Source: a virus
IMG/VR virus record: IMGVR_UViG_3300030105_000865
Coordinates: 1-23,668 of that record
Reading direction: 5' to 3' (one strand)
DNA: 23,668 nucleotides
The notes under the pieces were generated by a model. The model had not been told where the DNA came from and made no database searches. It saw only the letters and a list, made by a program, of their open reading frames with translations. Position 1 is the first letter of the stretch. Each line of letters begins with the position of its first letter. Positions 2 through 23,668 of this stretch are shown in pieces. The translations under genes were made by a program, and so were the position numbers.

Positions 2-664
2 GCCGCTATAGGCGCGGTTGCTGGTGGTGCGTTAGGGTATTTTGCTAAGAAAGGAATGAAGATCAAGAAGTCCTTATACGATGAAGGAGGTTTGTTTGAG
101 AAGCTAAGGGAGAGACGATCGGAACGCAGAATAGATAAAACTCCTGTTAGACAGGCTAGGACCTCAGAGCTTTTAGATGTACTGGCTAGCGATCAACCTA
201 CAACCTTGGGGGCATACGATCCAAAAGAAAAGGAGATAGTTATGTATAGGGATGGCGAAGATCCCGACACTCTTAAGCATGAGCAAGTGCATGCTTCTCA
301 ATACGGACCTTTACAGCGTTTAGCTTACAGAATGGATAACGATCATGACGCAAGGATACAAGACCCCGCAATGAGAAAAGCTTATAGAAAGCTTACTACG
401 GGGAAACACATAGTTGACGACAGTAAGTTCGATAAAGCTGGTAAGTATGTTTTAAGTAACGGGCAAGAATATGAAGCTGTATTAAATACAGGGGTAAATG
501 CTGCAAAAGAACAAGGGGTTGACTTTAATCTTTCGTTTGAAGAGATACTTTCTCAATTAAAAAATATACCTTCTCCTACTAATAATATGAAAGGGTTAAT
601 GAAGTTCATGAGTAATAAGTTTACTAAAGGGCAAAGAGATTTAATACTTAAGTCTATAAGATGA
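2..664 (+). CDS. HExxH zinc metallopeptidase-like protein, 5'-partial
   Basis: Counting from the ATG at 56, residues 75-79 read HEQVH, followed by A-S-Q. This is the HExxHxxQ zinc-binding signature of gluzincin-type peptidases, also seen in DUF4157-like proteins. A Glu in the downstream helix (E138 or E140) could be the third ligand. The frame stays open to the window edge: bases 2-55 encode a glycine-zipper-like stretch (G-A-V-A-G-G-A-L-G-Y-F), so the gene probably begins upstream and the ATG at 56 may be internal. However, the residues from 56 (M-K-I-K-K-S-L-Y-D-E-G-G) resemble the N-terminal tag of other small genes here, so an independent start is possible. The stop overlaps the next start as ATGA. 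A virion-associated peptidase acting during entry or maturation is inference; the metal-site motif is what is visible. Confidence 0.6.
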   Translation, partial: AAIGAVAGGALGYFAKKGMKIKKSLYDEGGLFEKLRERRSERRIDKTPVRQARTSELLDVLASDQPTTLGAYDPKEKEIVMYRDGEDPDTLKHEQVHASQYGPLQRLAYRMDNDHDARIQDPAMRKAYRKLTTGKHIVDDSKFDKAGKYVLSNGQEYEAVLNTGVNAAKEQGVDFNLSFEEILSQLKNIPSPTNNMKGLMKFMSNKFTKGQRDLILKSIR

Positions 665-3804: not shown

Positions 3805-4044
3805 ATGGAAGGAATTATTAGAAAAATTGTGGTCGGAAGAGACCCTAAAGACGGAATGGCTTATTATGTGGGAATGAGAGCAGGAGCGGGGAAAGTAAGC
3901 ACGATCGTCCAAGACGAGAGATATCTAGTCAAATACAGTAAAGACAGATACCTCGTATATATGCAAGATACAGAAGGGGTTCAAACCTTATGGAAAGCTA
4001 TAGACGGTATGCCGTGTATGTTAGAGTTCGATTGTAATTTTTGA
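3805..4044 (+). CDS. hypothetical small beta-rich protein
   Basis: This 79-aa protein contains a beta-hairpin-like N-terminus (G-I-I-R-K-I-V-V-G-R-D-P-K-D-G-M-A-Y-Y-V-G) and several alternating hydrophobic strands. It ends in D-C-N-F with no membrane span or catalytic motif. I believe similar short proteins with a G-R-D-P-K-D-G-M-A-Y motif occur in marine phages but cannot name a family. Its TGA stop overlaps the ATG of the glycosyltransferase gene (TGATG), so the two are probably translationally coupled. Confidence 0.6.
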   Translation: MEGIIRKIVVGRDPKDGMAYYVGMRAGAGKVSTIVQDERYLVKYSKDRYLVYMQDTEGVQTLWKAIDGMPCMLEFDCNF

Positions 4045-4802
4045 TGCGTATACCTAAAACAATATTACAGGTTTGGTTTGGGGGAACACCGTTAACCCCG
4101 CCAATGTTATCAGCCATAGACACCTGGAGGACTTTAAACCCGTCTTACGATCATATATTAATGTTTGATGACAACGGCAGGAAGTTTCTAGCGGACAATT
4201 TCACCGAAGACGTCTTACTTGCTTTTGACACGATGGATAGAGGCGCCGCTAAATCCGATCTATTTAGATACTGCTACCTGTTTGTTAATGGCGGCGTTTA
4301 TTCCGATATGGATAATATATGCCTCAAGCCCTTAGATGAATGGTTGCCTAAAGACAAGCCTTTTATAAGCTCTTTGAACCTTCCTTGTTTAACTCCTGGT
4401 GAGCAGTACGGAAAACACTTCGACCCCGAATCCGCCTTCTTGGCCTCTGTAGAAAATCACAAGTTCCTGAAGATGGCTATAAATCTATGTAAGTACAACG
4501 TGCTAAATAAGGCTGTCCATGGCCCCCACCCAAAGATGAAATCTCCTTACCGTAGGGGCTTGATGGGATTAACGGGTCCTAAGCTGTTAGCACAGGCTAT
4601 TCTTATGAGCAGCAATAGATCTATTGATGACAGCCTACACTTCGGTGAGAACTCAGGACTTAGCCTTCCTATTAAGGTTAAGGTTACAGGGACTAAGTTC
4701 CATGATAAGTTCTGGCAAGCCAATTTAGTGGATGAGAATGAAGAACCCGTTATACAAATGAAGTATGATGGATATAATCCAAAAGACTACTGGGCATTTT
4801 AA
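4044..4802 (+). CDS. GT32-like glycosyltransferase (DXD sugar-binding type)
   Basis: The 252-aa protein has the recognisable GT32 (Gly_transf_sug, OCH1-like) layout. The N-terminal I-P-K-T-I-L-Q-V-W-F-G (3-13) is the first strand of the nucleotide-sugar fold. It is followed by K-S-D-L-F-R-Y (70-76) and G-G-V-Y-S-D-M-D (83-90), whose D88-M-D90 is the metal and nucleotide-sugar binding DXD motif. The family transfers sugars from nucleotide donors. In phage it could modify host surface glycans or LPS, or decorate virion proteins. There is no signal peptide or membrane span, so it would act in the cytoplasm. An in-frame TTG at 4041 exists, but the ATG at 4044, overlapping the upstream TGA, is the better start. 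Confidence 0.85.
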   Translation: MRIPKTILQVWFGGTPLTPPMLSAIDTWRTLNPSYDHILMFDDNGRKFLADNFTEDVLLAFDTMDRGAAKSDLFRYCYLFVNGGVYSDMDNICLKPLDEWLPKDKPFISSLNLPCLTPGEQYGKHFDPESAFLASVENHKFLKMAINLCKYNVLNKAVHGPHPKMKSPYRRGLMGLTGPKLLAQAILMSSNRSIDDSLHFGENSGLSLPIKVKVTGTKFHDKFWQANLVDENEEPVIQMKYDGYNPKDYWAF

Positions 4803-4812
4803 AATAAAAGTA

Positions 4813-4971
4813 ATGAATAAAAGTAAAGGATTAGGCGACTCTATTGAAAAACTAGCTCGCCTTATAAAGATTAAAGCGCTTGTAGATAAAGTAAGTGCAA
4901 CTACAGGTAAGGACTGCGGCTGTAAAAAACGGCAAGAGTCATTAAATAAAAAATTTCCTTATAAAAAATGA
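4813..4971 (+). CDS. small conserved phage protein with DCGC motif
   Basis: The frame is open from an ATG at 4765 inside the glycosyltransferase gene, but the better start is the ATG at 4813, giving 52 aa beginning M-N-K-S-K-G-L-G-D-S-I-E-K. It contains a helical middle with A-L-V-D-K-V and a T-G-K-D-C-G-C-K-K-R-Q-E-S-L-N-K-K-F-P-Y tail. From memory, this tail recurs in small proteins of unknown function next to glycosyltransferases in marine phages and some bacteria. The two Cys may bind metal or form a disulfide. It overlaps the next gene by four bases (ATGA). Confidence 0.7.
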   Translation: MNKSKGLGDSIEKLARLIKIKALVDKVSATTGKDCGCKKRQESLNKKFPYKK

Positions 4972-5564
4972 AAACATTTAATCTATTTGTCGTTAAGCTA
5001 GAGAAAAGGCTTAAGGATACAATTACTTCCAATAGCGGATTTGAGCTACATATAGACGCAAGGTTTAACGACTTTGACAACCGAACAACTGAAGGCCCCG
5101 TTGTGTGTGTTCCCTTTAAGTTCGATACGGGAGTGGAAGTAGGGGATACTTTATACTTTCACCACTTAGTAGTTCTAGGTGGAGATAATAGCGGTCAAAT
5201 CTTTACTGAAGACGACAACACCTATATCGTTACTTACGATCCAAACAATGCTATTGGGAATCAAGCTATAGCGTATAAGAGCCAAAAAGACGGTAAGATA
5301 CATTGCTTAGCAGGCTGGTGTCTATTGAAATCTGTAGAGCAAGAAGAGTTAAAGCTTCAGTCGGACCTCATAGAGATAGTAGACCTCACGGAAGCCTTAC
5401 CCACTAAAGGGGAGGTGGCTTATACATGCAAAGCGGCTGACGAACAGGGAGTTGTCCCAGGAGACGTTGTGGGATTTAAGCAGAACAGAGATTATCGTAT
5501 AACTATAGACGAGGTAGAATATTACCGAACTCGCGCAGAAGACCTAATGTATGTCGAAATATAA
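4968..5564 (+). CDS. putative GroES-like co-chaperonin with two Cpn10-like repeats
   Basis: The 198-aa protein contains two alignable segments. The first has T-E-G-P-V-V (41-46) then G-V-E-V-G-D-T-L-Y-F (55-64), ending in G-K-I-H-C-L-A-G-W-C-L-L-K-S-V (109-123). The second has T-K-G-E-V-A (146-151) then G-V-V-P-G-D-V-V-G-F (161-170), ending in I-D-E-V-E-Y-Y-R-T-R-A-E-D-L-M-Y-V (180-196). Both match the GroES pattern of G-x-V, V-x-x-G-D-x-V-x-F and a closing (D)G-x-E-Y-x-x-x-x-E-x-D-I. GroES homologs cap the GroEL chamber, and phage versions such as T4 gp31 adapt the host chaperonin to fold capsid protein. A double domain is unusual for phage. No GroEL is in the window, so it would use the host's. 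It overlaps both neighbours. Confidence 0.6.
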   Translation: MKTFNLFVVKLEKRLKDTITSNSGFELHIDARFNDFDNRTTEGPVVCVPFKFDTGVEVGDTLYFHHLVVLGGDNSGQIFTEDDNTYIVTYDPNNAIGNQAIAYKSQKDGKIHCLAGWCLLKSVEQEELKLQSDLIEIVDLTEALPTKGEVAYTCKAADEQGVVPGDVVGFKQNRDYRITIDEVEYYRTRAEDLMYVEI

Positions 5565-6224: not shown

Positions 6225-6587
6225 ATGAAAAAATTATTATTTGTTTTATTGTTGTTACCTGTATCTGTTCTATCTCAATGCAATCAGCACGTTTTTACTT
6301 CTGTAGGAGCTGAGAAATGGACTAATTTTCAATATCAAGACTGTGATGGGGAGTCTCATTATTTTGGGTTGCCTGCGGGAGGGTATACTATAATTTACTG
6401 TGCAGACATAGGAACAACTTTTGTTTTAAACGGAGATGGCTTTGTCTACCCGTTACTTACAGAGCACCCTAATTACGCTTCATGCATACAGGAGGATACA
6501 TGCCCTGGGGACTTGGATGATAGTGGAACGGTAGACGTTCAAGATTTATTATTATTTTTATCAAGCTACGGTGTATGCGAAAATTAA
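6225..6587 (+). CDS. secreted protein with one dockerin-like EF-hand repeat
   Basis: Residues 1-18 form a classic signal peptide (K-K-L-L-F-V-L-L-L-L-P-V-S-V-L-S, then Q). The mature part is Cys-containing and beta-rich. The C-terminal repeat D96-x-D98-x-S100-x-T102-x-D104-x2-D107, followed by L-L-L-F-L-S-S-Y-G, is a complete calcium-binding loop plus helix of the dockerin/EF-hand type. Cellulosomal dockerins usually have two such repeats; one is common in marine Bacteroidota surface proteins, where it is not tied to cellulosomes. Export is likely, but there is no T9SS tail. Its end overlaps the start of the T9SS type B cargo by 13 bases, so the two are expressed together and may work together at the surface. 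Confidence 0.75.
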   Translation: MKKLLFVLLLLPVSVLSQCNQHVFTSVGAEKWTNFQYQDCDGESHYFGLPAGGYTIIYCADIGTTFVLNGDGFVYPLLTEHPNYASCIQEDTCPGDLDDSGTVDVQDLLLFLSSYGVCEN

Positions 6588-7747
6588 TATATCTATTAGC
6601 TTTATGGGTTCCAACGCTATCTGCACAATGCGATGTAGCTATAAGTAGTTGGGATGCTATAACAGGGGATATTGTTATAGAGGCTATTAACAGTGAGAAC
6701 TGTGGTTGCAATGAATTTACAACTGAAGGTAATACGTGTGAGAATAGCTCTAGTCCGTACGTAACTAATAACGAAACAGTCTCATCAATAGTTTTAGGGT
6801 TGCATGTAGAAGGGTTGGATTATAATTGGTTGGATTGTTTGACTGGAGTCAATCACCCAGGATGGACGTTTAAAGTTTTTACTCTTTATGGAAATCAAAT
6901 GCTAGAGAGTGGGGATACTTGGAGTGCTAATGTCTATGATACAGGGGCAAGTACAAGTGATTGTTGGACTGAGGTATTAGCTAACGATACGCTATGTACT
7001 GAGTTAGTTGTATGGCAGATTAATCTATCTCGCACAGCTTTTATAGATGATGGCGGTTGGGCGGTAAATCCAGGGTTTAACCAAACGCAGAACTACCCTG
7101 ACGTAGATCTTTCTAATAACACCGTTGTTAATTGTGCTCTACCTGCATGTGATACAGTGTATGTAGACGTAGAAGTTATCGAGTACATCACAGATACAAT
7201 AATCGAGTATATAGATGTAGAGTGGGTAACAACAGATACTATAATAGAATATTTATTACAATTAGTTTATATAACAGATACTCTTGTTGAATACGAGTAT
7301 ATTTATTTAACCGATACGATGTATGTAGACGTAGTTGTAGATAATTACGTTTATGTTACAGATACTTTAACGCTTACTGAATATGTATTTTCAACTGAAT
7401 ATATAGATTGCTATACAGGTTTACCTTGTGAAGATGGTGGAGGCGGGATTAATGACTGTGACGATAACAGTATTTTCATTCCTAATACTTTTACCCCTAA
7501 TAATGATGGGGTCAATGATGTATTTTATGCAATAACCGATCCAACGTGTTGGTTAACGTGGAATATGCAGATATACAATAGATGGGGGACGCTTGTAAAA
7601 GAAATAACCGATCCAATGGGTTATTGGACAGGGACAAGTTTTTCTCAACATTGGTTGTGCCCTGATGGGGTTTATACTTGGAAGCTTAACGCGACTCAGT
7701 CTGGAAAAGCCACCCAGCTGCAAGGGCTTGTAACAATATTTCGCTAA
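6575..7747 (+). CDS. secreted protein with T9SS type B (gliding-motility) C-terminal domain
   Basis: The 390-aa protein begins with a signal peptide (R-K-L-I-Y-L-L-A-L-W-V-P-T-L-S-A, then Q18-C). An N-terminal Cys-rich beta domain (about 19-190) precedes a repeat region (193-275). The C-terminal domain (about 298-390) is a textbook type B sorting domain (TIGR04131/CHU_C): I-P-N-T-F-T-P-N-N-D-G-V-N-D-V-F near 302-317, I-Y-N-R-W-G-T-L-V near 333-341, and D-G-V-Y-T-W-K with G-L-V-T-I-F-R at the very end. In Bacteroidota this domain directs export through the T9SS and surface attachment or release. Finding it in a phage head-gene region implies that the phage product uses the host machine. It overlaps the EF-hand gene and precedes a small basic gene. 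The adhesion or masking role is inference. Confidence 0.85.
   Translation: MRKLIYLLALWVPTLSAQCDVAISSWDAITGDIVIEAINSENCGCNEFTTEGNTCENSSSPYVTNNETVSSIVLGLHVEGLDYNWLDCLTGVNHPGWTFKVFTLYGNQMLESGDTWSANVYDTGASTSDCWTEVLANDTLCTELVVWQINLSRTAFIDDGGWAVNPGFNQTQNYPDVDLSNNTVVNCALPACDTVYVDVEVIEYITDTIIEYIDVEWVTTDTIIEYLLQLVYITDTLVEYEYIYLTDTMYVDVVVDNYVYVTDTLTLTEYVFSTEYIDCYTGLPCEDGGGGINDCDDNSIFIPNTFTPNNDGVNDVFYAITDPTCWLTWNMQIYNRWGTLVKEITDPMGYWTGTSFSQHWLCPDGVYTWKLNATQSGKATQLQGLVTIFR
7151..7399 (+). repeat. degenerate TDT protein repeats in the T9SS type B cargo
   Basis: Residues 193-275 of the encoded protein contain at least five copies of [YV]-x-T-D-T-[IL]-[IV]-E-Y-like units (at about 205, 219, 233, 245 and 261), spaced 12 to 16 residues. 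They are rich in Ile, Val, Tyr, Thr and acidic residues. Such repeats form extended beta stalks in Bacteroidota surface proteins. The DNA copies have diverged, so the array is old or selected at protein level. Confidence 0.7.
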
Positions 7748-7777: not shown

Positions 7778-8005
7778 ATGAAAGCTATAAAAAGAGATTA
7801 TAAAAAGGAGTACGCTAAGTACGGATCTAAGCTTAAAGCTAAAAAATATCGCGCGGAGCTAAATCAAATTAACAGAGAAAAAGGAAATTACGGGAACGGA
7901 GACGGATTAGACGAGGCTCATTTTAGTAAAGGGGGTAAGACTAGACTTCAAGCTCAGTCTAAAAACAGAGCTAACAACAGGCCTAAAAAAAGGAATAGCG
8001 TATAA
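7778..8005 (+). CDS. small basic phage protein (YGNGDG motif)
   Basis: This 75-aa protein begins M-K-A-I-K-R-D-Y-K and contains K-L-K-A-K-K-Y-R-A-E-L-N (18-29), Y-G-N-G-D-G (38-43), F-S-K-G-G-K (49-54) and a basic C-terminus rich in Asn, Arg and Lys. From memory, the K-A-K-K-Y-R-A-E-L-N ... G-N-G-D-G combination recurs in small proteins of unknown function in marine phages. It has no membrane span or signal. The high charge suggests nucleic acid contact or a packaged minor protein. The 30 bases upstream contain a T-run and TATATTGC, a weak promoter-like match. Confidence 0.75.
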   Translation: MKAIKRDYKKEYAKYGSKLKAKKYRAELNQINREKGNYGNGDGLDEAHFSKGGKTRLQAQSKNRANNRPKKRNSV

Positions 8006-8011
8006 GCTATT
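7994..8011 (+). terminator. small hairpin over the stop codon, weak terminator candidate
   Basis: AATAGC (7994-7999) and GCTATT (8006-8011) form a perfect six-base-pair stem with a six-base loop containing the TAA stop, followed by an A/T-rich stretch without a clean U-run. It could attenuate transcription before the lipoprotein gene, but the stem is short. Confidence 0.2.
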
Positions 8012-8029
8012 AAATTTAATATATATATA

Positions 8030-8239
8030 ATGAAATATTTACTTATCTTCATGTCTGCTATATTACTAGCGTCATGTTCTGTGCAGACTAAACACAGAAG
8101 GTCCCAAGCGAGACATTACAATCAATGCTGGTGTATAGACCCTTGGGGAGGAGGCGCCGAATGGTGCTGTGACGGACCAGCTCCAAAATACATGGCCCCA
8201 TACAAACATTCTAGAGGTTACATTAGAGCTAAATTTTAA
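8030..8239 (+). CDS. small lipoprotein
   Basis: The 69-aa protein has a hydrophobic signal segment (Y-L-L-I-F-M-S-A-I) followed by the lipobox L-L-A-S-C at residues 12-16, so it should be lipidated at Cys16 and anchored to a host membrane after signal peptidase II cleavage. The mature part has W-C, W-C-C and a Gly/Trp-rich patch followed by a basic tail; the Cys may form disulfides in the periplasm or at the surface. I do not recognise a family. It belongs to the group of envelope-directed products carried by this phage. Superinfection-blocking lipoproteins such as T5 Llp are a functional precedent, but there is no sequence match that I can see. Confidence 0.7.
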   Translation: MKYLLIFMSAILLASCSVQTKHRRSQARHYNQCWCIDPWGGGAEWCCDGPAPKYMAPYKHSRGYIRAKF

Positions 8240-8243
8240 TTAG

Positions 8244-8432
8244 ATGGCAGAGTATAAATGTGATTGCAACGACGAAGTTGTAGATAAATCAGGCGTAACA
8301 ATAAGGCATATTGAAGGGGAAGGTGTAATACATGACGTCCAATGCGAGAAATGCGAGAAATATATGACGTTAGCTAACCCAAAATCTGGCGCACCTGGGT
8401 TTAGATCTAATAGATATGGGCAGACGTTTTGA
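8244..8432 (+). CDS. small zinc-ribbon-like protein upstream of TerL
   Basis: The 62-aa protein carries C6-x-C8 near the start (Y-K-C-D-C-N) and C34-x2-C37 in the middle (Q-C-E-K-C-E-K), enough for one zinc site. The C-terminal A-P-G-F-R-S-N-R-Y-G-Q is basic and aromatic. Its TGA stop overlaps the TTG start of the terminase gene, so it is translationally coupled to TerL. The position fits a packaging helper, but it is too small and lacks the helix-turn-helix expected of a small terminase subunit. Confidence 0.7.
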   Translation: MAEYKCDCNDEVVDKSGVTIRHIEGEGVIHDVQCEKCEKYMTLANPKSGAPGFRSNRYGQTF

Positions 8433-10546
8433 GTATACTTTTAGATGTTAAAGAGTATGAAGAACCAGCTGTTAAAATTTGTCCCAACGGTACGGAAGGT
8501 GAGCTTATTGAACTCGGTGGGCTACTCATTTGCCTTCCAAAAAGGCCTCCGAAAAAAGAAATTTCAGGATATAAAGAACCAAACTCTATGCAAATGTGGG
8601 GAAGGGTACTTATGCCGCAGGAACTGTCTCGTATTCGTTCTATGGATGAGTGGGCGGAAATGCCACGAGAGTTTAGAGCAAGGTTTCGTCCATATATCGA
8701 GGAAGAGTTTAGGCGTAGGCGTGAGGGTTTTTGGTTTTATAACAACGGCACAGCTACATATATTACGGGGCGGCACTACATGATGATACAGTGGACCAAG
8801 ATGGATATTGGTTACCCGTATTTTTTAAACTTCCAAAGAGATATCTTCTTACACTTAGCGGCGTGTGAAATTGATCCTAGATGTATAGGTCAGCTATATA
8901 CTAAGTGTCGTCGTAGTGGGTACACAAATATGTGTTCATCTGTGCTTGTAGACGAAGGGACGCAAGTCAAAGACAAACTTATGGGGATTCAGTCTAAGAC
9001 TGGTAAGGATGCCCAAGAAAATATATTTATGAAGAAGGTTGTTTTTATGTTTAGAAACTACCCTTTCTTTTTTAAGCCTATCCAGGACGGTACAACCAAT
9101 CCGCGTATGGAGCTGGCCTTTAGAGAGCCATCGAAAAGAATAACTAAAAAGAACAAAACCTCTCAAATGGGAGAGGCTTTGAACACGGTTATAAATTGGA
9201 AAAACACAACAAATAACGCATATGACGGGGAGAAGTTACACCTGTTGTATTTAGATGAAGCAGGAAAATGGGAAAGACCTACAGACATAAGAGACGCTTG
9301 GAGGATTCAGAGGACTTGTTTGATCGTCGGAAGAAAAATCGTGGGGAAGGCAATGGTCGGAAGCACGGTAAACCCAATGGACAAAGGGGGAAGTCAATAC
9401 AAGGATCTATGGGAGGACTCAAATCCTTTGGAGAGGAACGCGAATGGGAGGACTAGAACTGGTCTATATAGACTTTTTATTCCTGCATATAATTCTCTAG
9501 AAGGTTTCTTTGATAAGTTTGGTCACCCAATAGTTGAAGACCCTATAGATACTACAGAAGGTATAGATAACGAGTACATTTATATCGGGGCTAAAACATT
9601 CTTAAAGAATGAAAGAGACTCTTTAAAAAACGATGCTTCGGAGTTAAACGAAGTGGTCAGGCAATTCCCCTTTACGGAAGACGAAGCCTTTAGGGATAGT
9701 ATAGAAGGGAGTGTATTTAACATCGGGCAGATCTATGAACAGATAGAGCATAATGACGAGCTGTTTCCTAACCCTGTTGTTGCGGGGAACTTTGTCTGGA
9801 AAGGAGGGGTAAAAGACACTGAGGTAGTATTTAGCCCAAACGTTCAGGGTAGATTTAAAATTGCCTGGATGCCACCTCCTGATTTTAGAAACCAAAAGAA
9901 AACAGAGAGAGGCAAGAGGGTAGCTCCTCATTCAAATTTTGGCGTTGGAGGAGTTGACTCATATGACCTTGACGCCACTGTAGATGGGAGGGGGTCTAAA
10001 GGTTCCTTGCACTTATATAACAAGTTCCATATGGAGCACCCTTGCAATATGTTTGTATTGGAGTATGCTTCAAGGCCTCCTTTAGCTAAAATATTTTACG
10101 AAGATGTTTTAATGGCCTCTGTGTTTTATGGTTACCCTATATTAATAGAGAATAACAAATACGGTATAGCAAGGCATTTTGAAGCCAGAGGATATGACGG
10201 GTATTTAATGGATCGGCCTAAACATTTACTTAGCGCTAGTGGAATGAAATCTAAAACAAAAGGTATTCCATCTAACTCACAAGACGTAATCCAAGCTCAC
10301 GCACATGCTATAGAGGCCTTTATACATGATCATGTAGGAACAAATAGAGAAACGGGAGATGTTGGAAAAATGTATTTCAATAAAACACTAGAGGATTGGA
10401 TAGGTTATAAGATAGACGATAGAACTAAATATGACCTTACAATTAGCTCTGGATTAGCTCTATTAGGAGCGCAAAAAGCTAAGCCTAAAAAGGCTTCTGA
10501 CCTGTCTGAAAAACGATTCTTTAGGAGATATCAAGTAATCGGATGA
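8429..10546 (+). CDS. terL: terminase large subunit
   Basis: The 705-aa protein is the DNA-packaging motor ATPase and nuclease. The ATPase part shows a deviant Walker A, K-C-R-R-S-G-Y-T (159-166), a Walker B, L-L-Y-L-D-E (272-277), and a coupling motif, G-S-T-V-N-P (311-316). The C-terminal RNase H-like nuclease has G-G-V-D-S-Y-D-L-D (507-515), with D510 a likely metal ligand, and L-I-E-N-N (572-576) with a second acid; D619 in S-Q-D-V could be a third. TerL converts ATP hydrolysis into DNA translocation through the portal and cuts concatemers. The start is a TTG overlapping the upstream TGA (TTGA). The next in-frame ATG lies 53 codons on and would drop the N-terminal strand region. The portal gene follows, as in most tailed phages. 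The long form with an R-R-S-G-Y-T Walker A reminds me of crAss-like TerL. Confidence 0.95.
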   Translation: MSILLDVKEYEEPAVKICPNGTEGELIELGGLLICLPKRPPKKEISGYKEPNSMQMWGRVLMPQELSRIRSMDEWAEMPREFRARFRPYIEEEFRRRREGFWFYNNGTATYITGRHYMMIQWTKMDIGYPYFLNFQRDIFLHLAACEIDPRCIGQLYTKCRRSGYTNMCSSVLVDEGTQVKDKLMGIQSKTGKDAQENIFMKKVVFMFRNYPFFFKPIQDGTTNPRMELAFREPSKRITKKNKTSQMGEALNTVINWKNTTNNAYDGEKLHLLYLDEAGKWERPTDIRDAWRIQRTCLIVGRKIVGKAMVGSTVNPMDKGGSQYKDLWEDSNPLERNANGRTRTGLYRLFIPAYNSLEGFFDKFGHPIVEDPIDTTEGIDNEYIYIGAKTFLKNERDSLKNDASELNEVVRQFPFTEDEAFRDSIEGSVFNIGQIYEQIEHNDELFPNPVVAGNFVWKGGVKDTEVVFSPNVQGRFKIAWMPPPDFRNQKKTERGKRVAPHSNFGVGGVDSYDLDATVDGRGSKGSLHLYNKFHMEHPCNMFVLEYASRPPLAKIFYEDVLMASVFYGYPILIENNKYGIARHFEARGYDGYLMDRPKHLLSASGMKSKTKGIPSNSQDVIQAHAHAIEAFIHDHVGTNRETGDVGKMYFNKTLEDWIGYKIDDRTKYDLTISSGLALLGAQKAKPKKASDLSEKRFFRRYQVIG

Positions 10547-10585: not shown

Positions 10586-13024
10586 ATGTATAATAACGAG
10601 AATAAAAGCAAGCAGGGTTTCCCAGATCCATTAGAATCTACGGAATTAAAGCAAAAGAAAGAATATGGTGTTCAGTACGCTAAAGCTATTGAATCTCAAT
10701 GGGGAAAAACTACGGACGATTCTTCTTTAGTAGGTAAGAGAAATAAAACTTTTGAGAAAGACCGAGATTATGCTATTGGGGTTCAAGATACAAGTATATA
10801 TAAGCAGCTATTAAATTCCCTTAATCCAAATAAAGCGGACGGAGCTTTGTTAAATATGGATTACACCCCAGTCCCTATTCTACCTAAATTCGTAAGAATT
10901 GTAGTTAACAAGATATTGTCTGTTAATCCTTATCCTAATTTAGAAGCGGTAGACCCTTTGTCTTCTTCTGAAAAAAATGAAAAAAAGAAAAGGATTTTAA
11001 AACAAGTTGACTCTAAGGATAAACTTAAAGAGCTAAAAGATAAGACGGGTGTTGTTTTAGATATGGATCCAGATTCTATTCCAGATACACCAGAAGAAGC
11101 GGAGATTTTATTCGACACTAACGTTAAAACAGACGGGGAGATATCGGCTCAGCTAGGGACGGAACTTACTCTTACGTGGAATAACTTCGTAGATAATACT
11201 TTCCGAAGATGTGTAAATGACTTGGCTACTCTAGGTATGTCTGTAGTAAAAAGGTCAAACGATCCAAACGAAGGCATTAAAACATCTTACGTAGATCCGT
11301 GTATGTTTATACATAGCTACACAGAAGACCCTAATTTCGAAGATCTTATATACGCTGGGCACATAAAAAAAATCTCTATACAAGAGTTAAAACGTTTAGC
11401 TGGAGAGGAATTAAATGAGGAGGACTACAAAAAGATTGCTCAGAAATCTAAAGGCCGAAATGGTAATGATTCTGGAAAATACAATAAGAACAACTATAGT
11501 CAAGCCCTAGGTAAGACCTCATTTGGATATGACGATTATATGGTTGAGGTTTTAGACTTTGAGTTTATTTCTGTCGATTGCATTCATTTTGAAGAAAAAG
11601 AAAACAAACATGGCAACACGGGGTTTTACTTTAAAGGCTTTGAGGAGCAACCTAACAAGAACAGTGTGTTTGAGAGAACCCCTCATAAATTAGAGGTGTC
11701 TACTGTTTATGGCGGAAGTTATGTTTTAGGTTGTGATTATTTATTTGGGTATGGCAAAACTAAGAACGTACCTAAAAATATACACGATATATCTAAGGCT
11801 ACATTGTCTTATTCTGTAACGGCAACTAATATCCGTAACATGATGCCAAAATCTATGGTAAATAGCTGTGTGGGATTTGCAGATATGCTTCAGCTTACTC
11901 ACTTAAAGATACAGCAAGCTATAGCAAAAGCCAAACCAGATGGTTTGATTATAGATATAGAAGGATTAGAGAATGTACAGCTAGGAAAAGGTGGAGAGCT
12001 ACAGCCTTTAGATCTTCATGACATATATGAGCAGACAGGTGTTTTTTATTACAGAAGTAAAAACCCCGAAGGTGGATTCCAAAACCCTCCTGTTAGAGAG
12101 ATAAGCAATAGCATAAGAAACATTAATGAACTTGTAGGTTTATATAACCATTACTTAGGTTTAATAAGAGATACAACGGGAATCAATGAAGCAATGGACG
12201 CTTCTTCCCCTAAAGGTGATGCTTTAGTTGGTGTTCAAAATCAAGCTATAGCTGCAGGTAATAACGCTATATATGATATAACAAATGCCGCTATGGTTTT
12301 GTTTAAAAAAGTATGTGAGGATATAGTTAAATGCATTCAAATTATACCTACTGAATCTGTTCTATATAAAATATATGAGAACGCTATCGGAGACACAAAT
12401 ATGGAGGCTTTAGCTTCTTTCAGAGACCTTCCAATGTACAACTTTGGGGTAGTTGTTGTAAAAGACATGGAGGAGAAAGATAAGGCTTATCTAGAACAAA
12501 ACATCCAGATGGCCCTTCAACAACAAGAGTTAGATTTAGAAGACGCTATAGCTGTTAGAGGTTTAAAAGATATCAACCAAGCGGAAAGGCTTCTTGTTGT
12601 TAGGCGTAAAAAAAGAATGGCTATGCAGCAGCAGATGGCTCAGCAGAACTCAGAGCAACAAGCTAAAATGCAGGGTCAAATAGCACAACAGGCACAACAA
12701 GCTAAAATGTCTGAAATGCAAGCGCAGGGTCAAATTGACACTCAAAAAATTCAAATGCAAGCGCAGGTCGATATGAAGATGGCGCAAATGAGGCATGAGT
12801 TTACTAAAGAAATTGAAATGCTTAAAGCTCAAGCTACTCTTGGATTTAAAGAGGACGATAAAGAGTTTAAAGAAAAACTTGAGGTTTTAAAAGAAACCCG
12901 TAAAGACGACAGGCTAGATCAACAAACCTCCGACCAAAGCAAACTTATATCTCAAAGACAAGGGAAAAGAGAGGAGCTGCCTGAAGGTTCAAACAAACTA
13001 ATTAATGCATTATTAAACGAATAA
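10586..13024 (+). CDS. portal protein
   Basis: The 812-aa product follows TerL and has the size and layout of a podovirus or crAss-like portal. The N-terminal region includes P-V-P-I-L-P-K-F-V-R-I-V-V-N-K-I-L (about 92-108), a typical portal helix contacting the wing domain. A central mixed region contains R-D-T-T-G-I-N-E-A-M-D-A-S-S-P (about 529-543), a signature common in portals before the stem. The last 140 residues are Gln- and Met-rich with a long coiled coil (about 677-790). The dodecameric portal forms the packaging channel at one capsid vertex and the connector to the tail. A promoter-like box and AAGG lie upstream of the start. The extended Gln-rich tail may project into the capsid or bind ejection proteins; this is inference. 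Confidence 0.88.
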   Translation: MYNNENKSKQGFPDPLESTELKQKKEYGVQYAKAIESQWGKTTDDSSLVGKRNKTFEKDRDYAIGVQDTSIYKQLLNSLNPNKADGALLNMDYTPVPILPKFVRIVVNKILSVNPYPNLEAVDPLSSSEKNEKKKRILKQVDSKDKLKELKDKTGVVLDMDPDSIPDTPEEAEILFDTNVKTDGEISAQLGTELTLTWNNFVDNTFRRCVNDLATLGMSVVKRSNDPNEGIKTSYVDPCMFIHSYTEDPNFEDLIYAGHIKKISIQELKRLAGEELNEEDYKKIAQKSKGRNGNDSGKYNKNNYSQALGKTSFGYDDYMVEVLDFEFISVDCIHFEEKENKHGNTGFYFKGFEEQPNKNSVFERTPHKLEVSTVYGGSYVLGCDYLFGYGKTKNVPKNIHDISKATLSYSVTATNIRNMMPKSMVNSCVGFADMLQLTHLKIQQAIAKAKPDGLIIDIEGLENVQLGKGGELQPLDLHDIYEQTGVFYYRSKNPEGGFQNPPVREISNSIRNINELVGLYNHYLGLIRDTTGINEAMDASSPKGDALVGVQNQAIAAGNNAIYDITNAAMVLFKKVCEDIVKCIQIIPTESVLYKIYENAIGDTNMEALASFRDLPMYNFGVVVVKDMEEKDKAYLEQNIQMALQQQELDLEDAIAVRGLKDINQAERLLVVRRKKRMAMQQQMAQQNSEQQAKMQGQIAQQAQQAKMSEMQAQGQIDTQKIQMQAQVDMKMAQMRHEFTKEIEMLKAQATLGFKEDDKEFKEKLEVLKETRKDDRLDQQTSDQSKLISQRQGKREELPEGSNKLINALLNE

Positions 13025-13531: not shown

Positions 13532-13702
13532 ATGAGTGTATCTGTAAGCACAACATCTGACAATACAGTTAGCGTTTCTGTTGGCGGCAGTACTTCTGTT
13601 AGCTTTACAAAAAAAAACTTTTCCGTTTCTGCAAGTTTATCTGCTGCGTCTTCAACAATATTAACCGAAAAATCCATTGGATCAATACAAGTGGTTGTTT
13701 AA
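13532..13702 (+). CDS. small Ser/Val-rich beta protein, 56 aa
   Basis: An ATG two bases after the preceding stop opens 56 codons ending in TAA at 13700-13702. The product alternates Ser, Val and Thr (for example M-S-V-S-V-S-T-T-S-D-N-T-V-S-V-S-V), with few charges, as in beta-structured phage decoration or fibre proteins. Otherwise the interval would be a 186-base gap in a compact genome. No family is recognised. It ends 13 bases before the T9SS type A cargo start. Confidence 0.55.
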   Translation: MSVSVSTTSDNTVSVSVGGSTSVSFTKKNFSVSASLSAASSTILTEKSIGSIQVVV

Positions 13703-13715
13703 CAACATAGGAAAC

Positions 13716-15716
13716 ATGAAAAAATTAATCTTCTTTTTATTTTTTTTACCTGTAACAATTTTATCTCAAAGCAGTTGGGTTAATGTAATAGTACAGGCCG
13801 ATAACTACGGAGGAGAAACTAGCTGGGAAATTTACGAAGACAGTACTATTGTAGCTATATCTGGGGCATACGCAAACAACTCGTATAATGAAATATTTGT
13901 TACTCTTCCCCCAGGAGGATATAACTTTGTTATATATGATCAATTTGGTGATGGTATATGTTGTGATTGGGGAGAAGGGTATTTTGGTCTAGTTAACAAC
14001 TGTGGTTTAAATACATTTGTATATGATTTTAACAGTCCTACAGCAACTGTATACTTTGACTTGCTAGCTTGCCCACCACCCGTAATAGGATGTATAGAAG
14101 CAGAAGCTTTAAACTTTAATCCTTGGGCTAATTCTCCTGCTCCTTGTACCTTTCCCCCAGCCGCTTGTGCTAGCGGCCAAACTAACATTATTTCTCTTAT
14201 TACTCCTGATAGCTATCCTAATGAAACGAGCTGGCAGATAACAGTTAACGGAGACACTCTTATATCTGGAGGGTACGAAGGAACTACAGGAGTAACAATA
14301 CCAACTTACACATGTGTTAACGAAGGAGATACTCTTGTAGCTACCATTTATGATACTTACGGAGACGGAATGTGCGGTACTTGTTGGGGAGGAGTAGATG
14401 GATATTTCAATGTGCTAACATTGTGTGGAGATAGTATTTTTACAGTGGGCGGAGAAACTCAGTTTGACACAATTTCTTCTAATCCCTACATAGTACCTGT
14501 ATGTGCACCTGTATCTTTTCAAGGATGCACTACGCCAGGATATGTAGAATACAATCCTTTAGCAGTTACAGATGATGGAAGTTGTAATACACTTGTAACG
14601 TTAGGTTGTACAGACATTACAATGTTTAATTACGATGTCTTGGCAAACACTATGGATGTTCACCCTTCATGTGATTACACCCTTACTATTACAGACGGTG
14701 GAGCAGACGGATGGTTTGGTAGTTGGTTAGGAATGACTCAAGGAGACAGTGTCTACGGTCCTTACTCAATGGGAGTAAATGATGGGTATGAAGAGGATTT
14801 TAATCTAACTCTAAACTCAAACGAAGAGATAAGTGTTTATTTTTTCACGGAGGGTAATGCAGAAACAACAGCTTCACAATGTGGCTTTAGAATTGAAGGC
14901 CCGAACGGAACGGTGCTACAGAGTGGAACAAACCCCTGGACAGATCCTCTTAAAAAATTTCCATATAAATACACTGAAACACCAACGTGTTCTAATTACT
15001 GTGAGGTATTTGTATACGGGTGCATGGATATAGAAGCTCAGAACTACGATGTAGATGCTAACGCCGAAGATAATACTTGTTATTTTGCGGGTTGCACTCA
15101 AGCGGGATATGTAGAATACTACAATCAGGGTTATGTAGCGGACTACGACAATGGGAGTTGTAATGAATTAGCTTTATTTGGATGTATGGATGAGCTAGCC
15201 TTAAATTATGATAGTGAAGCTAACGTAGATACAGGAGACTGCATTGAAGTAGTTGTTGACTGCACGGACCCTAACGCAGTGAATTACAATGAGTTAGCCA
15301 ACTCCCCTAGTAATGAATTATGTTTATACGATGCGGGATGTATAGGTGAACCAGGTACCCCTTATTACTTAAACGACTCATGCTATGCGTGGATAATAAC
15401 AATAGATCCATACTGTTGCGAAGTAGAATGGGACAACGCTTGTATTGATTTATACAGCTATTGTGAGCAGGGATGGCCAACAGGAGTTCCAGAAGCTAAC
15501 AATGGGTTTGATGTGTACCCTAACCCAGTAAGCGACGTATTAAACATACAGACCTCTCAGAACGTCCTTACAGAGGTGTACAATGCTTTTGGTCAAATTG
15601 TAATACCAAGCACTAGAGATAAAAGAATCAACCTTACGCATCTACCTAAAGGCCTCTATGAGGTTGTTGTAAATTATAACGGAAGAATTTTAATTAAAAA
15701 AATAATAAAGTCATGA
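13716..15716 (+). CDS. secreted Cys-rich repeat protein with T9SS type A sorting domain
   Basis: The 666-aa product has a signal peptide (K-K-L-I-F-F-L-F-F-L-P-V-T-I-L-S, then Q18). Two related beta domains follow (about 22-115 and 158-260), each with an E-T-S-W-[EQ]-I start and an I-Y-D-x-[FY]-G-D-G-[IM]-C core; a third related one lies near 320-425. Seven repeats of the G-C-x-D-x-x-A-x-N-Y type lie between 125 and 536. A D-P-Y-C-C ... W-D-N-A-C domain spans about 563-583. The C-terminus (597-666) is a textbook type A T9SS tail (TIGR04183): F-D-V-Y-P-N-P-V-S-D-V-L-N-I, V-Y-N-A-F-G-Q-I-V, L-P-K-G-L-Y-E-V and a final K-K-I-I-K-S. In Bacteroidota such proteins cross the outer membrane by T9SS and are attached to A-LPS by PorU. 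An in-frame TTG at 13677 is not favoured because it would bury the signal peptide. Confidence 0.88.
   Translation: MKKLIFFLFFLPVTILSQSSWVNVIVQADNYGGETSWEIYEDSTIVAISGAYANNSYNEIFVTLPPGGYNFVIYDQFGDGICCDWGEGYFGLVNNCGLNTFVYDFNSPTATVYFDLLACPPPVIGCIEAEALNFNPWANSPAPCTFPPAACASGQTNIISLITPDSYPNETSWQITVNGDTLISGGYEGTTGVTIPTYTCVNEGDTLVATIYDTYGDGMCGTCWGGVDGYFNVLTLCGDSIFTVGGETQFDTISSNPYIVPVCAPVSFQGCTTPGYVEYNPLAVTDDGSCNTLVTLGCTDITMFNYDVLANTMDVHPSCDYTLTITDGGADGWFGSWLGMTQGDSVYGPYSMGVNDGYEEDFNLTLNSNEEISVYFFTEGNAETTASQCGFRIEGPNGTVLQSGTNPWTDPLKKFPYKYTETPTCSNYCEVFVYGCMDIEAQNYDVDANAEDNTCYFAGCTQAGYVEYYNQGYVADYDNGSCNELALFGCMDELALNYDSEANVDTGDCIEVVVDCTDPNAVNYNELANSPSNELCLYDAGCIGEPGTPYYLNDSCYAWIITIDPYCCEVEWDNACIDLYSYCEQGWPTGVPEANNGFDVYPNPVSDVLNIQTSQNVLTEVYNAFGQIVIPSTRDKRINLTHLPKGLYEVVVNYNGRILIKKIIKS
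14088..15323 (+). repeat. seven GCxDxxAxNY-type Cys-rich protein repeats
   Basis: Copies begin near residues 125, 270, 298, 435, 459, 489 and 516 of the T9SS type A cargo, each about 20 residues from a first Cys to a closing Cys. The best match, near 489, reads G-C-M-D-E-L-A-L-N-Y-D-S-E-A-N then a closing Cys. Spacing is irregular because other domains are interleaved. This repeat is familiar from marine Bacteroidota extracellular proteins and probably binds calcium or forms disulfide-stabilised modules. Confidence 0.75.
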
Positions 15717-18749: not shown

Positions 18750-19163
18750 ATGGCTACGATCTCAGCAACAATAAATCTTACTAGTCCAGACATTACTGGT
18801 GACCCTTTAAATTTAAGTAAGACAACTAACTTAAATAAAGCGGGTACTGCTACTGGTTTGGACCAGTTTACAGGCGTTACTACCGTAGTATATGCAACTG
18901 CTAAGACAGCAGAGAAAATTGTAGATGCTGCAGATTACGTTGACACATCCGCTTCTCATAAAGTTTACATTAAAAATTCAGCTACTGGGTCTAGCGATTT
19001 TATTACTGTTGAGCTAGGGGGTAGTAATGTTTTAATGGGTAGACTTTACCCAGGAGATTGGTGTTTCTTCCCGTACGACGGAACTTTAGACGTAGACATA
19101 GATACTAGTGCAGCTAATATGAAGGTTGAATATGCTGTTTTTTCTCAATCAACCGCATCATAA
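18750..19163 (+). CDS. tandem beta-rich structural protein, copy A
   Basis: This 137-aa protein is the first of a paralog array. Its signature is S-P-D-I-T-G-D near 12-18, G-L-D-Q-F-T-G-V-T near 36-44, H-K-V-Y-I-K-N near 70-76, G-R-L-Y-P-G-D-W-C-F-F-P-Y near 97-109, and E-Y-A-V-F-S-Q-S-T-A-S at the end. Low charge, alternating Thr/Val strands and no signal peptide fit a virion decoration or fibre subunit. It is alignable end to end with copy B at 19175. Location just before scaffold and capsid suggests a head-exterior protein. No named family is recalled. Confidence 0.75.
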   Translation: MATISATINLTSPDITGDPLNLSKTTNLNKAGTATGLDQFTGVTTVVYATAKTAEKIVDAADYVDTSASHKVYIKNSATGSSDFITVELGGSNVLMGRLYPGDWCFFPYDGTLDVDIDTSAANMKVEYAVFSQSTAS

Positions 19164-19174
19164 TAATATAGACT

Positions 19175-19585
19175 ATGGCAACTACAACAGCAACATTAAT
19201 CCTTAGTAGCGCAGACGTTACAGGACATAGCTTTAATATGACGCAGACAGCTACCTTAACTAAGGCGGCTTCTTCAACAGGGCTAGACGAGTTTACAGGT
19301 ATTACTAGCAGAAAGTATCCATCAGCGCAAACCGATACGGTTGTTGTGGCGGATAGCATATATGTAGATACTACCGTAGCCCACAAGGTTTATATTAGAA
19401 ATACAAGTACTGGTAATAGCGATTATATCTTAGTGGAGCTTGAAGGTAATGTCATTATTGGAAGACTTTATCCAGGAGATTGGATGTTTATTCCTTATGC
19501 AGGAACGTTAGATATTCAAGTAACTACTATAGCTACAAACGTAAGCATTGAGTACGGGGTATTCTCTCAATCAACTGTATCATAA
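19175..19585 (+). CDS. tandem beta-rich structural protein, copy B
   Basis: The 136-aa product aligns with copy A along its whole length: G-L-D-E-F-T-G-I-T near 36-44, H-K-V-Y-I-R-N-T-S-T-G near 70-80, G-R-L-Y-P-G-D-W-M-F-I-P-Y near 96-108, and E-Y-G-V-F-S-Q-S-T-V-S at the end. The near-identical core with diverged strands between implies a gene duplication followed by surface divergence. Its stop overlaps the start of copy C by one base (TAATG). Probable virion decoration or fibre-like subunit. Confidence 0.75.
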   Translation: MATTTATLILSSADVTGHSFNMTQTATLTKAASSTGLDEFTGITSRKYPSAQTDTVVVADSIYVDTTVAHKVYIRNTSTGNSDYILVELEGNVIIGRLYPGDWMFIPYAGTLDIQVTTIATNVSIEYGVFSQSTVS

Positions 19586-20319
19586 TGGCAAGAACAGCAA
19601 CGACAACGGCAAGCTTTTCTTTATCTAGTGCAAACCTAACCAGTAGCCCTACTAATATCAGTGCGTCTACTACTCTAACAAAAGCAGCCTCTAAGCTTGG
19701 GTTGACCGACACTTCTGGTTTAGGGGTAAAAACAACATTATCGGTTGATCAATATACTTTATTCTATGCAGATCAATACACCGCTGACAAGTCAAGCAAG
19801 GTTTATTTAAGAAACCTTTCTACTATAGCTAGCGAATTCTTTTTAGTTTCAATAGACGACGAACCTTTAGGTAGGCTTTATGCTGGAGATTTTTCATTCT
19901 TCCCATGGTCAGCTACTGATGGGGTTAGACAAGTTATATCTTTAACTTTAGCAGCTACTTGGGCTACAGCAGATACAGTTACTTTTGATGGGCAAACTAT
20001 AACTGGAGCAGCAGCAGCAACTACAGCCGCTTGGGTTGAGCTACTTGCTACTACTAAATATCCTAACTGGACAGCTGCGGAAAATGGTGGCGCTAGTGAT
20101 ACCGTAGTGCTTTTTACAGCTAAGGATAGTAATAATTTAGAAAACTTTCAATTAGGAAGTGCGGAGGTAGCAACTGGGTCAATAGTGGCAACTATAACGG
20201 GCAATGGTACAGCCGTTGTAGCGCAAGTCACAGAGGGCGTAGCAAGTGCAAACGACATTAAAATTACACCAAGTGTAGCAACTTCGATGTCATTAGAACA
20301 CATATTAATAAACGAATAA
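19585..20319 (+). CDS. tandem beta-rich structural protein, copy C, with inserted domain
   Basis: The 244-aa protein shares the array signature in its first half (S-S-K-V-Y-L-R-N-L-S near 71-80, G-R-L-Y-A-G-D-F-S-F-F-P-W near 97-109). Where copies A and B continue directly to their last strands, it carries an extra block of about 100 residues. That block (about 113-218) contains T-W-A-T-A-D-T-V-T-F-D-G-Q-T-I-T-G, a pattern seen in phage fibre and tail domains. The core then resumes with N-D-I-K-I-T-P-S-V-A-T-S-M-S-L-E-H-I. Both ends overlap neighbours by one base. The insert looks like an added surface module on a decoration protein. Confidence 0.75.
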   Translation: MARTATTTASFSLSSANLTSSPTNISASTTLTKAASKLGLTDTSGLGVKTTLSVDQYTLFYADQYTADKSSKVYLRNLSTIASEFFLVSIDDEPLGRLYAGDFSFFPWSATDGVRQVISLTLAATWATADTVTFDGQTITGAAAATTAAWVELLATTKYPNWTAAENGGASDTVVLFTAKDSNNLENFQLGSAEVATGSIVATITGNGTAVVAQVTEGVASANDIKITPSVATSMSLEHILINE

Positions 20320-20726
20320 TGGGAAATCTTAGAGTAGGCTTATCATTAAGTAGTACGGACTTGCTCTCAAGCTCGTTAAATATCTCTGTAGCTACATCTT
20401 TAATATTAGACTCAGGAAGCCTTATTAGAGCAAAAGTAAAAGGTACAGCAGCCGATAGTGACGATCTAGCTATATATATAGTTAATCAGTGTAGCGACAG
20501 AGCGTACCTATACATAAAGAATTTAGATTCTCAACTAGAGAATTACGTATACATACATAACGACACAGATACTGGGTTAGTAGCTAAAGTAGGTGGAGGA
20601 GAGTTTGCTTTCATCCCTGTTGCTGTAGACAAGAAGTATGAAGTGTATGGGACTGTAATAGACACATTAATCGAGTACGGGGTATTCGGAAACGATAACT
20701 CAGCTGCACCATACGGTGGAAGCTAA
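20319..20726 (+). CDS. tandem beta-rich structural protein, copy D
   Basis: The 135-aa product keeps the array outline in diverged form: L-S-S-T-D-L-L-S-S-S-L-N-I-S near 10-23, R-A-Y-L-Y-I-K-N-L-D near 60-69, G-G-G-E-F-A-F-I-P-V near 91-100, and I-E-Y-G-V-F-G-N-D near 115-123. It has more charged residues than copies A and B. It overlaps copy C by one base. It is most likely another virion decoration or fibre subunit of the same fold. Confidence 0.7.
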   Translation: MGNLRVGLSLSSTDLLSSSLNISVATSLILDSGSLIRAKVKGTAADSDDLAIYIVNQCSDRAYLYIKNLDSQLENYVYIHNDTDTGLVAKVGGGEFAFIPVAVDKKYEVYGTVIDTLIEYGVFGNDNSAAPYGGS

Positions 20727-20738
20727 TAACATAAAGAC

Positions 20739-21083
20739 ATGGCACATCCAAGTAATCTTATAGGTAAAAACCCTCATTATATTGTAGGGGCTGTAACTGC
20801 AACTCTTACTGGGGGTGATTATTTTCATACCATTACTGTTCTAGCAGCCGCTGTTTTAACGGTTAAAGGTGGGGGGATATTTGAACACCTAGCAGCTGAT
20901 GGAGGTGATGGTACTCATATAGATTCTGGCGGTACTACACTTGGCGATACACATGACGCTGGTTTCTATGAAGCCTTAGGCACAACAGCGATTGCGCTTA
21001 CTATTCCAGTAGGAACTACTATACACGGAAGATTTACAGAGATTGCTTCTTCAACCAGTGATATCTCAATAGCATACAAATAA
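20739..21083 (+). CDS. beta-rich structural protein, second paralog pair, short form
   Basis: The 114-aa protein has H-Y-I-V-G-A-V-T-A-T-L-T-G-G-D-Y-F-H-T-I-T near 13-33 and a C-terminal T-I-P-V-G-T-T-I-H-G-R-F-T-E-I near 88-102, both shared with the next gene. Low charge and alternating strands suggest a virion exterior protein. The pair differs from copies A-D in sequence but has the same position and size class. It overlaps the next gene by one base. Confidence 0.7.
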   Translation: MAHPSNLIGKNPHYIVGAVTATLTGGDYFHTITVLAAAVLTVKGGGIFEHLAADGGDGTHIDSGGTTLGDTHDAGFYEALGTTAIALTIPVGTTIHGRFTEIASSTSDISIAYK

Positions 21084-22947: not shown

Positions 22948-23668
22948 ATGGCAACATTAACAGGAGCTAAAACAACGGCTGGGTCAACCCAAGCTGATGC
23001 AGCAGGCGCATTTCGGATTTCACCTGAATCGTACACAACTGTAGGCGAACTATTAAAAACAACAAAAGATGAGCACATGCCTGGGCTTATCGAGACTTAC
23101 GGCGATCAAGGTATCACTGGATTTCTTAAACTTACAGGCGCAATTAACAGCGGTGGATCTTCTGACGAAGTAAACTGGTGGGAGGCTGGTCGTCGTCACA
23201 AGACATTAGCATACACATCTGGTATAACTATTTCTGGGGACACTAAAAGCCTAAGCGTTACAGACGCTATTGTAACAGCAGCGGTGCAAGTTAACGATGT
23301 TCTTATGGACAAAGAAACAGGCGCACGTTTTATCGTAAAATCTGGTGGATTTGCAACAGGAGATGCAGTAAATGTCGTTCTTGTAAAACTAGACGGAAGT
23401 ATAGTTGCAACAGGCACAGATATTGACGCTGGTACAGCTGGAGAGTTTATTAGACTAGGTAATATGTACGCTCAGGGAAGTAACCAACCTACAGCATACG
23501 ACGATTTCAACGCTAAAAAGCGTACTAACCCATATATGATCGTTAAAGATCGTTACGAGGTTAACGGTTCGCAGGCTACGAATATCGGTTGGGTAAATGT
23601 AGGTGGCGGAGAGTACCGCTGGTTTATGAAGGGTGAGCAAGAGGCTCGTGCTCGTTTCGAGGACCGTC
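22948..23668 (+). CDS. major capsid protein, 3'-truncated by window end
   Basis: The first 240 residues are present; the frame runs off the edge. Recognisable capsid features include an N-terminal arm, M-P-G-L-I-E-T-Y-G-D near 48-57, W-W-E-A-G-R-R near 80-86, and V-N-G-S-Q-A-T-N-I-G-W-V-N-V near 206-219, followed by Y-R-W-F-M-K-G-E-Q-E-A-R. The V-N-G-S-Q-x-x-x-I-G-W block with the downstream E-x-x-x-R reminds me of crAss-like capsid proteins. The fold would be HK97-like. Arg is encoded almost only by CGT/CGC here, whereas neighbouring genes mostly use AGA, a sign of very high expression. It is preceded by the scaffold-like gene, supporting the call. Confidence 0.85.
   Translation, partial: MATLTGAKTTAGSTQADAAGAFRISPESYTTVGELLKTTKDEHMPGLIETYGDQGITGFLKLTGAINSGGSSDEVNWWEAGRRHKTLAYTSGITISGDTKSLSVTDAIVTAAVQVNDVLMDKETGARFIVKSGGFATGDAVNVVLVKLDGSIVATGTDIDAGTAGEFIRLGNMYAQGSNQPTAYDDFNAKKRTNPYMIVKDRYEVNGSQATNIGWVNVGGGEYRWFMKGEQEARARFEDR

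Follow-up and report, generated by a model that had tools for sequence, protein, structure and literature searches.

The locus studied here raises two questions, namely whether a gene in a virus record joins two GroES-like domains in a single chain, and which function such a protein could perform in a phage. The DNA analysed (hereafter the window) is the virus record of 23,668 bases, and the gene occupies positions 4968..5564 of its + strand as an ORF of 198 amino acids (aa) with an ATG start and open throughout. Judging from its sequence and from predicted structures, the product of this marine phage gene is most likely GroES in doubled form, GroES being the lid that closes the bacterial folding machine GroEL.

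Sequence evidence for the two domains

The protein can be divided into a divergent GroES-like domain 1 (residues 1-110; 4968..5297, + strand) and a canonical Cpn10 domain 2 (residues 111-198; 5298..5561, + strand). A sequence-only reading of this DNA had derived two tandem repeats from two similar strings lying about 106 residues apart, each preceded by a T-x-G-x-V strand. Both observations hold in the ORF: the GVEVGDTLYF strand of the first repeat unit (residues 55-64; 5130..5159, + strand, in domain 1) and the GVVPGDVVGF strand of the second (residues 161-170; 5448..5477, + strand, in domain 2) are spaced by 106 residues, and T41-E-G-P-V45 and T146-K-G-E-V150 stand ahead of them, respectively. 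G59, D60 and L62 of the first string were invariant in the alignment of relatives (41 rows). The PHROG 13932 profile ('co-chaperonin GroES') gave a full-length match, covering residues 1-197 over profile positions 1-199 of 200 (E 1.4e-41).

Domain 2 is GroES-like both by sequence comparison and by its predicted fold. Pfam Cpn10 (PF00166) covers residues 118-194 of the window protein with E 0.0047 and 17.4 bits, below the cut-off of 21.1 bits; all 41 rows of the alignment, the window protein included, match Cpn10 at E<=1 (best 6.8e-11), and a Cpn10 match above the cut-off was found in 27 of 30 records, in 9 of those solely via a separate single-domain GroES. A profile of residues 106-198 from 54 relatives matches Thermus GroES with E 7e-8, and the full-length profile (41 rows) retrieves Thermus GroES from the PDB at 0.0033, over positions 107-193 only. 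Pfam Cpn10 matched domain 1 alone in none of the 54 relatives, and the domain 1 profile retrieved no co-chaperonin from the PDB sequences (best E 0.17). An NCBIfam search of the tandem protein at E 0.01 yielded no match, and phmmer with a single tandem protein against the PDB sequences yielded no co-chaperonin. The Cpn10 search on each half that had been proposed as a check on the repeats favoured the second half, although below the cut-off in the window protein, and found nothing in the first.

That domain 1 is GroES-like though far diverged is supported by profile comparison, by its own predicted fold and by its loop motif. Comparison of half 1 with single-domain GroES, represented by a profile of 14 phage rows (partly redundant) and five fragments of PDB chains, gave 30.9 in hhalign (P 3e-5), against a mean of 10.5, a standard deviation of 2.5 and a maximum of 23.7 in 150 shuffles, and the alignment extends from the mobile loop through the GDTLYF strand. 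The same comparison gave 63.7 for half 2, the shuffled null having been made for the half 1 comparison. In the tandem protein of an elemo phage, domain 1 (residues 14-64) matches the single-domain GroES profile PHROG 3188 (3e-4).

The similarity of the two halves to one another is a different matter. Half 1 against half 2 gave 20.6 in hhalign, the maximum of 150 column-shuffled controls being 20.1, so that an internal repeat barely exceeds chance when judged by sequence alone. The hhalign probabilities of three half-against-half comparisons were weak (4.6, 14.8 and 8.2), so that, as the origin of the gene, a fusion of two different GroES genes fits these comparisons as well as an internal duplication does.

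Predicted fold, mobile loops and roof

The AlphaFold model of the full-length protein had a mean pLDDT of 74.3, with alternative models as low as 55.8. It is uncertain at residues 1-3, 16-21, 24-32, 72-80 and 127-140, with pLDDT under 50 at 16-21, 24-32 and 127-140; the uncertain stretches 16-32 and 127-140 coincide with the expected positions of mobile loops. Its best match in the PDB, both by Foldseek (E 1.4e-3) and by Z, was 7ekq_R, a 'Cpn20 co-chaperonin subunit', presumably from Chlamydomonas, as 'CrClpP' in the entry title suggests. The alignment (Z 9.4, rmsd 5.4, 166 residues) extends over residues 3..198 against 14..194 and thus across both domains, in the two-domain layout of Cpn20. 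T4 gp31 aligned with the full model over residues 104-198 only, with Z 7.1 (2cgt_O) and 6.4 (1g31_A). Domain 2 within this model reached Z values of up to 8.8 against GroES, and in a viral structure library the full model was closest to the cpn10 of Cellulophaga phage phi18:3.

Modelled alone, domain 1 had a pLDDT of 82.7. Plain Foldseek matches of this model were weak (best E 0.24), yet the top eight rows were GroES or Cpn10 chains. In a second-look alignment the best 14 entries were all GroES, Cpn10, gp31 or Cpn20, with Z from 7.2 to 5.6, the highest of these values lying in the middling range of the alignment tool; the first unrelated entries were dehydrogenases with a related barrel, at Z 4.3 or below. 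The predicted models therefore have the GroES beta-barrel in both domains.

The tandem claim had been staked on a GroES fold in both halves and on the retention in each of the mobile-loop residues needed for GroEL binding. It survives on both counts, since both halves are predicted to be GroES-like and a putative hydrophobic GroEL-binding motif is present, at the motif level, in the loop of each. The mobile loop of domain 1 (residues 11-43; 4998..5096, + strand; 33 residues, including the two low-pLDDT stretches at 16-21 and 24-32) contains the putative motif G24-F-E-L27 (5037..5048, + strand) inside the stretch aligning to single-domain GroES. The loop of domain 2 (residues 123-148; 5334..5411, + strand; 26 residues, with low pLDDT at 127-140) contains L134-I-E-I-V138 (5367..5381, + strand). 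G-F-E-L and L-I-E-I-V would be the residues that contact GroEL.

We surveyed these loops in full-length relatives, 182 of them distinct after removal of a longer variant, and counted alanine as hydrophobic. The pattern G-hydrophobic-x-hydrophobic was found in the domain 1 loop of 180 of the 182, the two exceptions being the elemo protein, with G-L-I-L shifted in the alignment, and another with G-K-E-L. For the domain 2 loop, 119 proteins have a long form and a clade of 63 a short one, of 17-19 residues; the strict pattern of the I-E-I-V type was present in 112 of the 119 long-loop members, the other seven having a variant of the motif, and in 0/63 of the short-loop members. Two working loops are thus not universal in this family, because the second is shortened in these 63 relatives.

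Between the same landmarks, the domain 1 loop has 33 residues and that of Thermus GroES, by a hand count, 25; from the strand to the GD turn, domain 1 has 12 residues, domain 2 has 13 and Thermus, again by a hand count, 20. The latter counts suggest that the roof hairpin is missing in both domains. A short roof is not specific to the tandem protein, because single-domain phage GroES and domain 1 of Cpn20 are likewise short between strand and GD turn. Domain 1 also has an expansion of its own (residues 65-98; 5160..5261, + strand), of 31-34 residues in the relatives versus 13 at the equivalent site of domain 2. It contains the pair H65-H66, each reaching at least 90% conservation over 54 rows; the pair is retained in the window-like and short-loop clades, and the Cellulophaga proteins lack it.

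The expansion, for which domain 2 has no counterpart, and the failure of Pfam and of the PDB sequence profile to detect domain 1 would fit a protein in which only domain 2 works as GroES, domain 1 being either a spacer that has diverged or an adaptor, GroES-like in its barrel, for binding substrate or capsid. We consider this unlikely, given that the loop motif of domain 1 is nearly always retained while loop loss hits domain 2 in one clade, and that mean column identity is higher in domain 1 (56%) than in domain 2 (49%). Moreover, the median dN/dS of the tandem ORF was 0.043 in each half (66 and 68 pairs, drawn from 37 genes of equal length, one of them probably counted twice). Both halves are under equal and strong purifying selection, which counts against the decay of one of them, and the ORF behaves like a selected gene.

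Distribution, gene neighbourhood and chaperonin repertoire

The tandem gene is widespread, hundreds of phage contigs carrying a relative. Pattern scans of IMG/VR confirmed 105/106, 6/7, 540/545 and 109/116 stretches in overlapping sets, and a further overlapping scan confirmed 519 among the 599 matches listed. The gene and its GroES/cpn10 label are already known from PHROG 13932 and from phage annotations, other relatives being labelled hypothetical. The expectation that a tandem co-chaperonin would be notable in a phage needs qualifying: the gene is not rare in IMG/VR and several relatives already bear the label 'GroES/cpn10'. A literature search in part of PMC yielded no description of the two-domain phage type.

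To characterise the neighbourhood we used a sample of 302 loci, all with the tandem gene (at most 80 per scan), which comprise 200 distinct gene sequences. In 197 of the 200, the terminase large subunit gene (TerL) follows the tandem gene on its own strand; for the other three, the downstream sequence in the sample amounted to at most 2461, 1488 and 13 bases, and one of these three is the window's own gene, for which TerL begins at 8429 when the full window is considered. The gap between the tandem gene and TerL ranged from -16 to 2904 bases, with a median of 795 (295 loci). In the window, the terminase large subunit (8429..10546, + strand; phrog_6681, E 1.5e-199) is followed by the portal protein (10586..13024, + strand; phrog_6547, E 3.7e-191) and, cut at the window end, by a gene matching phrog_13704 'virion structural protein' (22948..23667, + strand; E 2.1e-35), whose product is a possible folding client. 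Phage records matching the window terminase number 98, and in 83 of these the phage is one of Flavobacterium or Cellulophaga. The order tandem gene to TerL, with no or one ORF between them, recurs in Cellulophaga phage phi19:3, Maribacter phage Panino, Flavobacterium phage elemoF and a Manatee Spring (USA) phage genome; the gene is annotated as a co-chaperonin GroES in the first three and as a hypothetical protein in the last. According to a flavophage survey (Table 2, PMC8776804), the eight core genes of 'Pervagoviridae' include a 'chaperonin cpn10', which may be of the tandem or of the single-domain type.

A scan of genome contigs gave two confirmed stretches among 87, one on a scaffold of an Ekhidna metagenome-assembled genome (MAG) and the other, which matches only partially, in a Flavobacteriales MAG. 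The Ekhidna relative (206 aa, 39% identity) lies at 8001-8621 of a 44-kb scaffold and is followed by TerL-like and portal-like ORFs, as judged by eye. Both loci could be phage contigs binned into MAGs, and the Ekhidna scaffold, as phage or prophage, may hint at a host.

Location within a block of structural and packaging genes could also mean that the protein is a virion component or a scaffold, in which the GroES barrel is a mere structural fold, and related barrels do occur outside chaperonins, for example in alcohol dehydrogenases. The conservation of GroES-like loop motifs speaks against this very improbable reading, as does, though absent annotation is weak evidence, the fact that the tandem gene of phi19:3 is not annotated as a virion structural protein, unlike several genes near it.

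The chaperonin repertoire was examined in 30 records, possibly incomplete, with the loop class checked for each. All 16 window-like records carry the tandem gene and gave no match to GroEL or to single-domain GroES. In the four records of the phi19:3 group the tandem gene is accompanied by a single-domain GroES, again with no GroEL, whereas nine of the ten records of the short-loop clade combine tandem gene, single-domain GroES and GroEL, the tenth (41.8 kb) having the tandem gene only. Outside the short-loop clade and with no phage GroEL, the second loop was kept in 20 of the 20 records examined. The full second loop thus accompanies the absence of a phage GroEL, a correlation that is drawn from few clades, rather than from independent events of loop loss, and from possibly incomplete records. 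The window record itself (23.7 kb) contains no GroEL and no second Cpn10 match, which is uninformative alone given its short length.

Comparison with known co-chaperonins and proposed function

The earlier reading held that the protein resembles plastid Cpn20 rather than T4 gp31. In architecture this is correct, with 7ekq_R aligning over both domains and gp31 over one and at lower Z; for the likely role, gp31 is the better analogy. Like plastid Cpn20/Cpn21, the phage protein has two head-to-tail GroES-like domains, about 200 aa and one mobile loop per half. It differs in that domain 1 is far diverged and carries the long expansion, and in that a sister clade of phage tandem proteins lacks most of the second loop; the similarity is one of architecture and implies no orthology. 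Cpn20 is defined by eukaryotic encoding and by plastid or apicoplast targeting, while this gene resides in a virus record that also encodes a terminase and a portal of phage type, and the protein is accordingly Cpn20-like in layout and not classed as Cpn20. In a review, the tandem type is called chloroplast-specific (PMC5780408), and functional homo-oligomers and seven-domain hetero-oligomers of Cpn20 are reported there and in a second source (PMC3542282), so that tandem units can work. T4 gp31, as portrayed in PMC6318259, is likewise a phage-encoded co-chaperonin with a longer mobile loop and without roof loops, essential to the folding of the capsid protein gp23; it is a single-domain heptamer, whereas the 198-aa tandem protein has two GroES-like domains by prediction.

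Among phage proteins, the 'chaperonin cpn10' of Cellulophaga phages phi19:3, phi18:3, phi13:2 and phi46:3 is the same two-domain type, with a full-length match at about 24% identity to the window protein, and in phi19:3 the gene is placed one ORF before TerL; unlike the window-like records, all four of these records additionally carry a single-domain GroES. The single-domain phage GroES (PHROG 3188), for instance that of Flavobacterium phage elemoF, has the loop motif and the GD-type strand common to both halves, but comprises one domain of 83 aa and adjoins a phage GroEL gene.

The gene is placed among packaging genes, its product is predicted to fold like a GroEL lid, and no GroEL turned up in window-like records, which makes the host GroEL the presumed partner; we infer from this that the protein acts as a lid on host GroEL for the benefit of phage structural proteins. 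We regard it as probable that this lid is built, like Cpn20, from tandem units and that, in the manner of gp31, its clients are structural proteins of the phage; docking on GroEL, the size of the ring and the client are predictions. Three or four tandem copies would assemble into a lid of six to eight domains, or alternatively three tandem copies and one single-domain GroES would make seven domains. In the latter composition the single unit could be the phage's own GroES, for the phi19:3 and elemo types, or the host GroES, for window-like phages. The loops of the tandem lid would dock on host GroEL, the roofless lid with its long first loop may enlarge or open the folding cage, and phage head proteins would then fold in this altered cage, as with gp31 in T4. 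A more specific version, which we put forward tentatively and hold to be doubtful, is that window-like phages draft the host GroES into a chimeric seven-domain lid on host GroEL, and that phages encoding both GroEL and GroES use the cut-back tandem protein, with fixed asymmetric GroEL contacts.

The protein might instead bind host GroEL as an inhibitor or re-targeter, displacing host GroES and diverting or blocking host folding. Its lid is unlike bacterial GroES, and for window-like records a partner would have to come from the host; the terminase gene is a conserved neighbour, however, which points to a part in morphogenesis, and gp31 offers the precedent of a phage protein that replaces GroES productively (PMC6318259). 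We accordingly judge inhibition quite unlikely and favour the host-GroEL lid that folds phage proteins.

Tandem co-chaperonins have been regarded as a plastid peculiarity, and the puzzle they pose is that of fitting an even number of domains as a cap onto a ring with seven-fold symmetry. The phage family, which is large and shares this architecture, is an independent and clonable case. Nature supplies it in three settings (tandem alone, tandem with GroES, and tandem with GroES and GroEL) and with a second loop that is either retained or cut back, so that both the symmetry problem and the contribution of each loop can be tested directly. The family also points to a way in which many Bacteroidota phages could fold their head proteins.

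Other genes of the window were noted in passing. Directly upstream of the co-chaperonin gene lies a DXD-motif glycosyltransferase (4041-4802, + strand; Gly_transf_sug, E 1.1e-17). Two phage genes, at 6575-7747 and 13677-15716 (+ strand), end in type IX secretion (T9SS) sorting domains, of type B (CHU_C/TIGR04131) and type A (Por_Secre_tail/TIGR04183), respectively; a cryoconite phage with T9SS cargo was termed 'a unique occurrence' in 2020 (PMC7468147). Finally, six successive ORFs of 137, 136, 244, 135, 114 and 224 aa occupy 18750-21757 (+ strand), the first four of which look similar at their starts by eye and are possibly tandem duplicates.
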